Of a stretch of 36,485 nt of DNA, positions 5,324 through 28,906 are shown in pieces. The notes beneath the pieces are model-generated. The model was not told the origin of the DNA. It worked only from the letters and a program-made list of their open reading frames with translations, and ran no database searches. The stretch covers positions 1-36,485 of the IMG/VR virus record IMGVR_UViG_3300042922_000564; one strand, given 5' to 3'. A program made the translations under genes and the position numbers. This DNA is from a virus. How positions within the stretch are numbered: the stretch's first letter is position 1; each line of letters starts with the position of its first letter.

Positions 5324-6205
5324 CTAGGCCGTCGTGAATTTCGTGATGTTCGGCGCGGCCAGCGCATTCCCGGTCTGATCCCGCACGCCCACACCCGCCA
5401 TGGCCAGATACAGCGTAGCTGCCGTGAGATTCGCAGCAGGGGTGAAAGTGACGATCTTCTTGGTCGCATCCAGAGAGAGCGAACCGGACACCGCACCGCT
5501 ACCATCCGCCTTCTGCAGAATGAAGTTGGCCGGGATTACAGAGCTTTCCGCAAGCGCCTTGCTGAAGGTCCATTTCATCGGTGCAGTCACAGCAACCGCC
5601 GTTGCATTGTTGGCCGGCAACGCGGTCAACGTTGGCGCTGTCGTATCGCCACTTAAGTTCGGAACCTCATCGAACCAGGCATCCGCCAGAGCGAACCCGG
5701 CCTGATCATCGTCACCGGTCAATCTCCACTGGCTGTCAAAATCCCGGACAACAAAAGTGCCTGTGATTTCCGGAGTCTGGAACGCCGGTGTATCTCCCTT
5801 GGTCTCGTAGGAATCTTCCGGAATGGAGAACTGACCTTTCAGCAGCCACACATACCGATAGCTACCGTTCGTCTTCACGCTGCGGAAGCCTACGGCCACG
5901 TAAGGCGCCGTATCCTCGGAACTGTCGATCAGCACGCCGCTTGAAATTTGTTTACCGAGCAAGTCGGCCTGTACCGGCAAGCTCAGATTGTCAACGCCGA
6001 GCGTGACCTCGATCCCGCCGATGCTGGTTGCTGTTTCTGACGGACCGTCATCGGCATACAGCGTTTCACTGTTCACCGTTGGTGTAATGGTCGCGGAAAT
6101 GGCTTTTGCAATGCGGACCGGCGTTTCATACGAAATGGCGTCCCGGCTGTCTTCGATAATCTTGGCATAGAACAAATCTCTCAAACCAATTTTTACTCCT
6201 GGCAT
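5324..6205 (-). CDS. Major tail (tube) protein with C-terminal Ig-like domain
   Basis: A 293-residue protein. Residues 1 to about 180 look like a siphophage major tail protein of the phi13 type (start MPGVKIGLRDLFYAKI, beta-rich). Residues from about 188 form an added domain beginning DTTAPTLTALPANNAT and ending in a TKFTT strand. This matches the SbsA/Big_5 Ig-like domain pattern of Firmicute surface proteins. Such domains protrude from the tail tube and are thought to bind cell-surface sugars. The gene follows the head-tail joining genes and is followed by a terminator, fitting its high expected copy number. Confidence 0.9.
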   Translation of the reverse strand: MPGVKIGLRDLFYAKIIEDSRDAISYETPVRIAKAISATITPTVNSETLYADDGPSETATSIGGIEVTLGVDNLSLPVQADLLGKQISSGVLIDSSEDTAPYVAVGFRSVKTNGSYRYVWLLKGQFSIPEDSYETKGDTPAFQTPEITGTFVVRDFDSQWRLTGDDDQAGFALADAWFDEVPNLSGDTTAPTLTALPANNATAVAVTAPMKWTFSKALAESSVIPANFILQKADGSGAVSGSLSLDATKKIVTFTPAANLTAATLYLAMAGVGVRDQTGNALAAPNITKFTTA

Positions 6206-26341: not shown

Positions 26342-26572
26342 ATGAGACTCCGTCAAGGGAGCTGCCTGCTGCCAGATATTCGGAAGTCTCGGGGAAAGAC
26401 ACAAGAGCAGGTTTGCACTGCTCTTAAGAATGAGTTAGGGGTGGAAATGTCCCCTTCCTACTTCTCCAGGATCGAGAAAGGCATTGCACCTCTGACTCTG
26501 CTACAAGCCAGAGCAATATGCATTGTACTGGCTTGTACCGAGCAACAACTTTATCACTATACGCAAGACTAG
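26342..26572 (+). CDS. XRE-type HTH regulator
   Basis: A 76-residue HTH protein: 'DIRKSRGKTQEQVCTALKNE', then SPSYFSRIEKGIAPLTLLQA. Strong ribosome site AGGAGGGAACA. It resembles short stand-alone XRE regulators. It is divergent from the 25997 gene and convergent with the agr-like operon. Confidence 0.75.
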   Translation: MRLRQGSCLLPDIRKSRGKTQEQVCTALKNELGVEMSPSYFSRIEKGIAPLTLLQARAICIVLACTEQQLYHYTQD

Positions 26573-26831
26573 GCAGCAGGCTGGAGCATTTATTGCTCCC
26601 CCGTGACACAAAAATGAACTAAGCACGAAATAAAACTTTAAGTCAATACTTTTTCATCGGTTGAATACATTTCTAATTAAACCCCTTTTAAGATAAAATG
26701 TATAGTTGAACTCGGATTCTAAAATAGGCTTTTCGACACCATAATTCGACAAACAAGTTATCGTTTTTATGGTATATTGTTTAATTAGCAAATAAAAAAA
26801 GCCACCTATAAGCCGGAGGCTTTTTTTATTA
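26573..26831. other. AT-rich intergenic region
   Basis: No gene is supported. It holds a small hairpin (GGAGCATTTATTGCTCC, about 26582-26598) after the XRE gene, with no T-run, and a bidirectional terminator at its right end. The rest is AT-rich with no recognised motif. Confidence 0.5.
26794..26827 (-). terminator. Terminator of the agr-like operon (possibly bidirectional)
   Basis: GCCTCC and GGTGGC arms (one mismatch) are flanked by seven A and seven T residues, so the structure ends in a T-run on either strand. It lies five bases after the LytTR stop codon. Confidence 0.75.
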
Positions 26832-27194
26832 TTAAGCATATACAATTGTGTGCGATGCTTTTCTTTTAATTTCTTTTATTCGATCTTCGGCCAATGGACA
26901 GTATTTTCCTCTTCTTTCGGCTGAAAAATAAGCCCGGCAAAAAAACTTGTCCACCAACTGAATTGCATCTACATTAATAACCCCGATCCTATCAGCACGA
27001 GCGAAATTGTATCCATTAAGCTTAAACAGGTCCAACCAGTAAACCAATGTTCCTACCGTATAATAGGTGTTTAATTCAGTATGCACAATAATTCTTTTTT
27101 CAGAGCGAAGATATTCAATAAATAAAATTTGATTTATAAGAACAGAGAATAATCCGCTGCCGTCGACTTCTTTTGTCACTGATATTGAGTGCAT
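26832..27194 (-). CDS. LytTR-type DNA-binding regulator without receiver domain (AgrA-like output)
   Basis: A 120-residue protein that consists of a LytTR domain only: ILFIEYLRSEKRIIVHTELN near the N-terminus, then 'YYTVGTLVYWLDLF' and FARADRIGVINVDAIQLVDK, matching the family's IxyIE, HT, FxRxHRS and VN..I positions. There is no phospho-acceptor receiver. ATG 27194 follows GGAGG; the frame's GTG at 27206 lies in that ribosome site. Last gene of the agr-like operon, so it is probably its transcription regulator, perhaps acting on the promoter at about 28510. Confidence 0.82.
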   Translation of the reverse strand: MHSISVTKEVDGSGLFSVLINQILFIEYLRSEKRIIVHTELNTYYTVGTLVYWLDLFKLNGYNFARADRIGVINVDAIQLVDKFFCRAYFSAERRGKYCPLAEDRIKEIKRKASHTIVYA

Positions 27195-27205: not shown

Positions 27206-27325
27206 CTACAGCAATTCTTCTGGAACTTCCCCTTCGTACACATACAGTAAGCTCGCTGTACTAAGCGATCCTACAGCAACAACTGACAATAATGTTGCGA
27301 GTAAAGATAGAGCGCGACGTTTCAT
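27206..27325 (-). CDS. agrD: AgrD-like autoinducing peptide precursor
   Basis: A 39-residue peptide directly after agrB (three-base gap). It has a basic, amphipathic N-terminus (MKRRALSLLATLLSVVAVG) and a C-terminal tail YEGEVPEELL that matches the conserved AgrD recognition segment (DEVEVPKEL in S. aureus AgrD-I). Aligning those tails places SLLYV at residues 25-29 as the five-residue macrocycle, with Ser25 in the position of the usual Cys. The signal would then be a lactone, as known for S. intermedius. GGAGGTGA precedes the ATG. Exact N-terminal trimming cannot be predicted. Confidence 0.8.
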   Translation of the reverse strand: MKRRALSLLATLLSVVAVGSLSTASLLYVYEGEVPEELL

Positions 27326-27328
27326 TCT

Positions 27329-27850
27329 TCATTTCACCTCCCTCCATGTAATTAAAGTAAGACCTTGCACCAAAAAGCACAGAGTAAGTGTTGTTGATTG
27401 GAAGAAAAAACTGCTGGATACAATTAATACAGAAAGAATTTTTAAACCAGGATAGTATCGTCTCGGTATTCGATTTTGCTGTCTAATTCTAGAAGGCGCA
27501 TATACTATGTAAAGGATGATGCTAACTACATTGAGTATCTGAATATATTGCAATTCCAGGTGTATCAGAGAAAGTATTGTGAATGTAGTTGTTGTAGCTA
27601 AAACACACTTCATTCCCGACTTCAGATGAATACCTCCAGAAATTTGTCTTATAGAAGCAAAGACAATCAGTAGAATAATCACTTCCTTTGTCCGGCTGGT
27701 TACGAATGATACAAGTAATGTTCCAATAATAATGAAAGCCGTATTAAGCATAATGGCGAGTGAATATTTCAGGACAGCTACCGAAGCTTTATGATCGGGA
27801 ATATTTCGTTTTATCCCTTCTGCCATTTTTAATGCTAGTGTTTCAATCAT
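27329..27850 (-). CDS. agrB: AgrB-like peptidase/processing membrane protein
   Basis: A 173-residue integral membrane protein of the AgrB family. The catalytic pair is visible as His75 (ISGGIHLKSG) and Cys82 (MKCVLAT), seven residues apart as in S. aureus AgrB (His77/Cys84). About five to six membrane segments. It cleaves the AgrD C-terminal tail and forms the thiolactone or lactone ring. ATG 27850, after GGGAGAGGGAAG, overlaps the receptor gene's stop by eight bases; agrD follows after three bases. Confidence 0.92.
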   Translation of the reverse strand: MIETLALKMAEGIKRNIPDHKASVAVLKYSLAIMLNTAFIIIGTLLVSFVTSRTKEVIILLIVFASIRQISGGIHLKSGMKCVLATTTTFTILSLIHLELQYIQILNVVSIILYIVYAPSRIRQQNRIPRRYYPGLKILSVLIVSSSFFFQSTTLTLCFLVQGLTLITWREVK

Positions 27851-28472
27851 CTTCCCTCTCCCTTTTAAAAGAGTAGTACAAGAAAAACATAGAAAGCAGG
27901 AAGAAAACAAGAATATTCATGTAAATTTCTTTGTAGTACAGCAAAACAGATATGCCTAACAAAAAACCAATAATAGTTATTGTAAGCGCTATATCCTCAA
28001 ACTTAAATCGTAATTTCTCAAATTCAAAATTAAACCCTTTGCCCATGTGGTAAAGGAAATAGGCTCCGACTATAAGAACAATAGCGCTGATTACCTGCAG
28101 CAAATATCCATTTACGATACTATTATCTATTGCGCTTATTGATCCAAAAAACAATAACACAATGCAAGTCTGCGTCACAGCAAAAATCACATACCCGGCG
28201 ATCGTTGCAAGTAAAGAAAATATCAATGGAAGTTTTACCACAACTGTAAAGAAGATTGTAAATAACATGATACTGATTACCGGCGCAACATTTGCCATAG
28301 ATAAATCATTTCTCAGAAGATAACTTTGGAGGTTCATTAGAAGGATGAAAAAAAGCACTTGCCATGCGTACCAACTCCACTTAAACCTAAACAAGCACAT
28401 TATTAAAAAGTACATAGAGAACGCTTCAATAGTTGAAAAAAACATAAAACCTACGGGCTCCCACGACAACAT
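27843..28472 (-). CDS. Seven-TM membrane protein, AgrC-like sensor without kinase domain
   Basis: A 209-residue protein made almost entirely of about seven hydrophobic segments, ending in a short charged tail (SFKREREDD). The size and topology resemble the N-terminal peptide-sensing half of AgrC, but the dimerisation and HATPase domains are absent; the gene stops where the linker would begin. ATG 28472 is preceded by AGGTGG. First gene of the operon, overlapping agrB. It may be a receptor that controls the LytTR protein directly, or an exporter or immunity protein for the peptide. Family assignment rests on topology and context. Confidence 0.6.
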   Translation of the reverse strand: MLSWEPVGFMFFSTIEAFSMYFLIMCLFRFKWSWYAWQVLFFILLMNLQSYLLRNDLSMANVAPVISIMLFTIFFTVVVKLPLIFSLLATIAGYVIFAVTQTCIVLLFFGSISAIDNSIVNGYLLQVISAIVLIVGAYFLYHMGKGFNFEFEKLRFKFEDIALTITIIGFLLGISVLLYYKEIYMNILVFFLLSMFFLYYSFKREREDD

Positions 28473-28509: not shown

Positions 28510-28540
28510 ATTATACCGCCAAAAACCTAAAACCGTATAT
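28510..28540 (-). promoter_or_regulatory. Promoter of the agr-like operon
   Basis: A perfect TATAAT (28515-28510) lies 38 bases upstream of the receptor start. The -35 position holds ATACGG, far from consensus, so activation, for example by the operon's own LytTR protein, is plausible. No clear AgrA-type direct repeat could be identified. Confidence 0.6.
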
Positions 28541-28585
28541 CAGAATGTGCGACTTTTGCATACTTGAATATTCATGACATAAATA

Positions 28586-28653
28586 TATACTCGTACAAGT
28601 ATATTGTCAATAAATATTTAATACTTGTACGAGTATAACAATTTCTATATAAT
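28586..28653 (+). promoter_or_regulatory. Promoter of the RHH gene with two inverted 17-bp operator sites
   Basis: TATACTCGTACAAGTAT (28586-28602) is the exact reverse complement of ATACTTGTACGAGTATA (28621-28637). Each is itself nearly palindromic. The right site contains the -35 (TTGTAC, 28625-28630) of a consensus promoter with 17-base spacer and TATAAT (28648-28653). They are likely operators of the ribbon-helix-helix protein, autoregulated and possibly reaching the agr promoter to the left. Confidence 0.78.
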
Positions 28654-28664
28654 TACAGCAAAGG

Positions 28665-28886
28665 ATGGTGAGCATATTGGAGGAATCTAAAAGAAGCCCA
28701 GCATCACGGGCAAAGATGAAATACAACGCCAAAAACTATGAACGAATCCCCTTAGATGTCAAAATAGGCACCAAAGCAATCTATAAGGCTGCAGCTGCGG
28801 CAGAGAATCTAAGTCTAAATGCTTTTATCCAGAAGGCCATAGAAGAAAAAATGGATCGAAAATCAAAGGAAACCCCGCCAGCATAA
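28665..28886 (+). CDS. Ribbon-helix-helix (Arc/MetJ-type) DNA-binding protein
   Basis: A 73-residue protein: a basic N-terminus, the beta-strand region YERIPLDVKIGTKAIYKAAA and the helix 'ENLSLNAFIQKAIEEKMDRK', a pattern of Arc-like repressors. The start is uncertain: ATG 28665 abuts its AAAGG, while TTG 28677 has GGTGAG four bases upstream. It is divergent from the agr-like operon and likely binds the paired 17-bp sites before it. It could alternatively be an antitoxin, but no toxin gene is adjacent. Confidence 0.68.
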   Translation: MVSILEESKRSPASRAKMKYNAKNYERIPLDVKIGTKAIYKAAAAAENLSLNAFIQKAIEEKMDRKSKETPPA

Positions 28887-28906
28887 TCGTTGACGGGGTT
28901 TCCTTT
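28865..28906 (+). terminator. Strong terminator of the RHH gene
   Basis: AAAGGAAACCCCG (28865-28877) pairs perfectly with CGGGGTTTCCTTT (28894-28906). The stop codon lies in the loop. The arms give a T-rich end in both directions, so it may also protect against readthrough from the lysis genes. Confidence 0.8.

Follow-up and report, generated by a model that had tools for sequence, protein, structure and literature searches.

A small ribbon-helix-helix (RHH) protein encoded in the accessory region of a phage probably represses both its own promoter and a divergent promoter (P1) facing an agr cassette by means of twin operators, and the cassette appears to have a further promoter of its own (P2). 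Judged by sequence comparison, the repressor, its sites, and P1 would form a portable control module. The window, i.e., the whole stretch of DNA analyzed here, is an entire IMG/VR virus record of 36,485 bases, representing a phage with an integrase, lysis genes, and tail genes. The twin sites lie between the endolysin gene and the agr cassette (Table 1). A nucleotide search with the 26.3-28.9 kb region gave no match among phage records, and a protein search of phages returned a single weak relative, Dulem virus 34.

Table 1. Features of the region between the LytTR gene and the end of the RHH gene in the window.
Feature	Position	Strand	Evidence or remark
LytTR DNA-binding protein without receiver domain	26832..27194	-	Pfam LytTR, E 2.7e-7
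AgrD-like 39-aa peptide precursor	27206..27325	-	Sequence reading; homolog in L007
AgrB	27329..27850	-	Pfam AgrB, E 7.7e-21
AgrC-like membrane protein without kinase domain; ATG 28472, RBS AGGTGG	27843..28472	-	
agr promoter P2, TATACG (28539-28534) N18 TATAAT (28515-28510)	28510..28539	-	Common to 30/38 agr loci
Promoter P1 facing agr, TTGACA (28610-28605) N17 TATATT (28587-28582)	28582..28610	-	11/12 match; register kept in 24/28 loci
Operator 1, ATACTCGTACAAGTAT, near-palindrome	28587..28602	.	In 17-bp spacer of agr-facing promoter P1; paired sites in relatives
Operator 2, ATACTTGTACGAGTAT	28621..28636	.	Over -35 of RHH promoter; centre 34 bp from operator 1
RHH promoter, TTGTAC (28625-28630) N17 TATAAT (28648-28653)	28625..28653	+	Sequence reading
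RHH repressor gene, TTG start (alternative ATG 28665), phrog_13890 / Arc-like	28677..28886	+	
Probable RHH-gene terminator, CCCCGCC...GACGGGG then T-rich	28875..28906	+	Sequence reading; the pattern scan did not report it

Twin sites and promoters of the divergent region

The initial annotation described a 17-bp site, TATACTCGTACAAGTAT, at 28586-28602 on the plus strand and its exact reverse complement at 28621-28637, and both were found as described. With up to three mismatches allowed, the sequence occurs in these two places only (each on both strands) in the 36,485 bases, where shuffled sequences are expected to give 0.02. The two copies are separated by 18 bp. Each copy is nearly palindromic in its own right (consensus ATACT-N6-AGTAT), which accounts for most of their exact inversion; they are near-direct repeats as well (88%), and in relatives the two sites of a pair are often not exact inversions of one another. 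A literature search with the operator sequences returned unrelated papers only.

P1, whose spacer is filled by operator 1, scores highest among the promoter matches in the region. It had been overlooked in the initial annotation, which credited the agr side with a -10 element lacking a -35; the TATAAT in question belongs to the separate promoter P2, with TATACG (TATACT in some relatives) 18 bp upstream. No terminator-like site was found by pattern scan on the minus strand between P1 and agr, and the first open reading frame with a ribosome-binding site behind P1 is AgrC. On the other side, the -35 of the RHH promoter does lie inside the right-hand copy of the site, as had been proposed, but the promoter is not of consensus type: the -10 is perfect and the spacer is 17 bp, and the -35 matches in only three of six positions.

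P2 is located about 50-70 bp outside the operators. Its arrangement was observed with or without an RHH gene nearby, in a sample of 38 agr loci, most of which come from a single bacterial family or its phages and a few of which are overlapping copies of one locus; the distance from P2 to the AgrC start is the same in most of the loci that have it. P2 is probably activator-dependent, and we infer that its activation by the LytTR protein of the cassette is plausible. In several other agr loci (L087, L091-L093) the element GTGTCGAA was observed shortly upstream of P2. A tandem TGTCGAA element (TGTCGAATTATGGTGTCGAA) is present past the LytTR gene in the window (approximately 26735-26756, minus strand) and is conserved in L007 (approximately 5709-5730). 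The motif resembles Spo0A boxes.

The RHH protein and its paired sites

The RHH gene is monocistronic, and the gene following it, the endolysin gene, is on the other strand. Translation more likely starts at the TTG, giving 69 amino acids with AAAGGATGGTG upstream, than at the alternative ATG. The best-matching PHROG family is phrog_13890, to which no function is assigned, and the match is Arc-like. Only sub-threshold matches were obtained from Pfam and NCBIfam, and a sequence search of the PDB gave no relative. The AlphaFold model was matched by Foldseek mostly to RHH proteins, including Arc, CopG, CopASO, and AmrZ, with probabilities up to 0.97 and weak E-values (0.3-1). The expected beta-strand is modeled as coil in the monomer; in RHH proteins this strand normally forms in the dimer.

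A site-only pattern scan of 2.9 million viral contigs, with a pattern not learned from these loci, returned 13 stretches. RHH relatives were found directly beside the motif in L015, L020, L021, L023, L026, and L025, the last being the contig of L006. In L014, L016-L019, L022, and L024 the motif falls within or next to genes of other kinds and no RHH relative is present; these stretches were taken as chance matches. Protein searches covering the family (394 genomes) and the order (392 genomes) of Paenibacillus rhizophilus, two sets that partly overlap, supplied further relatives. Among 54 RHH-family matches, many of them fragments, ATACT-N6-AGTAT was present upstream at least once in 36 and at least twice in 31, with a consensus learned from part of the same loci; shuffled controls gave 0.78 and 0.0, respectively, and the downstream control gave 0. 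Nearly every intact gene of the family has paired upstream sites 31-34 bp apart, i.e., about three helical turns. In 24 of the 28 pairs with this spacing, divergent -35 and -10 elements separated by N17 surround site 1 in one fixed register. In the 5.2-Mb genome of P. rhizophilus, allowing up to one mismatch, the only match is the pair adjoining the RHH gene of that genome.

Sequence is almost constant in the outer half-sites, and the inner six bases vary by subfamily, tracking the RHH beta-strand. YERIPLDV is found with a YGTACR core, YDQVKLWV with GGTACC, YDRLYPYV with CACGTG or TGCGCA, and YDKFLVVT with TATATA. The varying residues 27, 29, and 31, which from an alignment by eye we take to correspond to the contact residues 9, 11, and 13 of Arc, are by this analogy expected to touch DNA. 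The core hexamer correlated with these three residues in a Mantel test (r 0.64), and the correlation held after removal of similarity in the rest of the protein (partial Mantel r 0.60, permutation p 2e-4), in tests that do not fully remove shared ancestry and include a few near-duplicate rows. With the beta-strand residues given, no further correlation comes from the rest of the protein (r -0.15). Natural variants of phrog_13890-type RHH proteins may make it possible to read, nearly as a code, how the beta-strand specifies DNA.

Since the blind scan, the family-wide pairs, and the covariation of core and beta-strand agree, the twin sites are very probably operators of the RHH protein. The initial annotation had named conservation in related prophages as a check on the sites, and the paired layout is indeed kept upstream of nearly all intact RHH relatives, among them those in other Paenibacillus prophages. 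Its suggestion that the RHH protein represses itself gains support from the position of operator 2 and the paired sites of relatives, and the suggestion that it may also repress the agr operon from the position of the other operator in the P1 spacer. An unannotated phage RHH family thereby gains a likely function and predicted operators.

The agr cassette and the genes facing RHH in relatives

The cassette resembles agr quorum-sensing systems in its AgrB, recognized by Pfam, and in an AgrD-like reading frame after agrB, identified by position and look and not by profile. The AgrC-like protein (209 aa) has no Pfam kinase domain, and the LytTR protein (120-124 aa) has, by Pfam, a LytTR domain only; the pair of an AgrC histidine kinase and an AgrA response regulator combining receiver and LytTR domains was not found in the cassette by Pfam. 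Matches to the AgrC-like protein were observed in 217 of the 394 genomes of the P. rhizophilus family. In several phages the cassette comes with an XRE-type gene that converges on the end of the LytTR gene (window, 26342-26572; L007, 5904-6131; L109, 11085-11309; L010, 6018-6242).

In the closest agr relative, L007, AgrC is 93% identical, the divergent gene is of XRE type, and neither an RHH gene nor RHH sites were found at the agr locus. Conversely, of 16 RHH loci inspected together with their flanks (up to about 9 kb), only 2 had agr nearby. In most relatives the first divergent gene encodes a peptide of 36-71 aa that combines a single hydrophobic segment with a basic stretch; a membrane peptide of 27-30 aa and other small genes often come next. 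The RHH modules examined often stand after a prophage holin. The divergent operon of P. rhizophilus reaches agr after about 1 kb, small reading frames coming first. One gene of the divergent small-gene operon of L100 is shared with the operon preceding agr in L007. The window lacks the small divergent genes but retains the RHH gene and its sites.

A second RHH-like family, RHH2 (MAGRPKKDESEKKIREAIYFEPELLEW; L139-L148), has different repeated operators, GCATTTAAA. In 8 of the 10 nearest viral loci of RHH2, agr was found within 4 kb, on either side; it is divergent from RHH2 in L139-L141 and on the same strand in L142 and L145-L148. A small membrane peptide of the MKDW type, with a basic tail and a toxin-like or holin-like look, was observed as the first divergent gene under both RHH families in spite of their different operators (L005, 2094-2210; L038; L044; and L146, upstream of RHH2). 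The idea of RHH and agr as one conserved operon was dropped, agr being on either side of RHH2 and absent beside most RHH genes of the window type.

Because P2 occurs with or without a neighboring RHH gene and the predicted RHH-controlled promoter of relatives usually faces a small membrane-peptide operon, the direct coupling of RHH and agr is best read as a local joining of two modules. Across the loci compared, such joining in a prophage accessory region recurs only in variants. Since L007, P. rhizophilus, and the RHH2 loci are arranged differently, agr cassettes and RHH modules appear to share an accessory hot spot and to combine in several ways.

Proposed regulation and comparison with known systems

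The paired sites across the family, the promoter register, the covariation of core and beta-strand, and the conservation of P2 are consistent with the following scheme. An RHH dimer on operator 2 would cover the -35 of the RHH promoter and so cause autorepression, and a dimer on operator 1 would fill the spacer of P1 and block RNA polymerase. As P1 reads straight into agr here, RHH would keep read-through transcription of agr low. P2 would give the cassette separate control, probably through activation by its LytTR protein. Repression may be lifted by dilution or titration of RHH at entry or replication of phage DNA. The unit of RHH, operators, and P1 would be a portable module of prophage accessory regions, with agr in the window taking the place of its usual small membrane-peptide target.

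It could be argued that the twin sites serve RHH autoregulation only, that P1 is weak or silent, and that agr is run by P2 alone, its adjacency being incidental. The occurrence of P2 regardless of RHH, the closely related agr locus of L007 without RHH, and the lack of agr at most RHH loci all fit this explanation; nevertheless, we consider it unlikely, as P1 is close to consensus with its register maintained in most of the loci compared, the pattern scan found nothing resembling a terminator before agr, and AgrC is the first reading frame with a ribosome-binding site downstream. A bistable switch, as suggested in the initial annotation, is considered here in the form of mutual shut-off between RHH and the LytTR/agr circuit. 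Although a shared intergenic region flanked by an autorepressor and by an agr circuit that may activate itself would suit a switch, RHH would act negatively on itself, no LytTR-type element was recognized by eye at the RHH promoter, and P2 stands apart from the operators in the same form as in agr loci without RHH. With a loop of negative feedback, no cross-repression element seen in the divergent region, and no sign of LytTR or agr products acting on the RHH promoter, the switch finds no support in the sequence and seems improbable.

The hydrophobic and basic peptides faced by RHH in relatives, one type of which also faces the second RHH family, raise the thought that RHH is an antitoxin and the divergent peptide its toxin. 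This is improbable: the RHH gene is short and monocistronic with no visible toxin-neutralizing tail, the divergent order is unlike type II loci, whose antitoxin is in an operon with the toxin gene (an arrangement not found in the window), and the peptide is absent from the window where RHH and its sites remain. That the repeats are recombination sites or terminator hairpins is scarcely credible. Two exactly inverted 17-bp copies with a short interval would allow it, but a pattern scan found no hairpin followed by a T run at the sites, and in relatives the copies have drifted apart in sequence with the palindrome of each preserved, and the spacing and promoter register are kept.

Under the preferred reading, repression of both promoters by RHH, a prophage agr cassette can have two controls that are independent of each other, one through a phage-type repressor promoter and one through its own promoter, which makes the use of peptide signaling by phages directly testable. 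As a speculation that we regard as doubtful, temperate Paenibacillus phages could place a kinase-less agr cassette behind an RHH-repressed promoter so that phage DNA, on entering or replicating, dilutes or titrates the repressor and signal production goes up, reporting infection or induction to neighboring cells via a short secreted peptide.

The RHH protein resembles repressors of the Arc/CopG/AmrZ type in its small size, predicted fold, near-palindromic operators over promoter elements, and apparent reading of DNA by the beta-strand. Three features typical of RHH (Arc/MetJ) repressors are thus indicated: the fold by the structural model, near-palindromic or repeated operators at regulated promoters by the sequence, and specificity set by alternate beta-strand residues by statistics only. 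In contrast to Arc/CopG/AmrZ-type repressors, the twin 16-bp sites lie at a fixed 31-34 bp, one per divergent promoter, and the operator cores of the phrog_13890 family change with the beta-strand.

HdrRM and BrsRM are LytTR regulatory systems in which a receiver-less LytTR regulator is encoded beside a membrane protein. The window has the same combination, but its membrane protein is AgrC-like and is accompanied by agrB and agrD. A phage-borne agr locus (agr3) with agrB, agrD, and agrC has been described in the Clostridium difficile phage phiCDHM1, whose AgrC has a HATPase domain (PMC3901668). The two phages share these three genes, and an endolysin gene is mentioned in the text on the flanking region of phiCDHM1; the word "promoter" is absent from that paper (PMC3901668). 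The window cassette differs from phiCDHM1 in its kinase-less AgrC, in the presence of a LytTR protein, and in the RHH-operator promoter that faces it. What the window combines is a kinase-less agr cassette and a probable RHH autorepressor whose twin operators serve divergent promoters.
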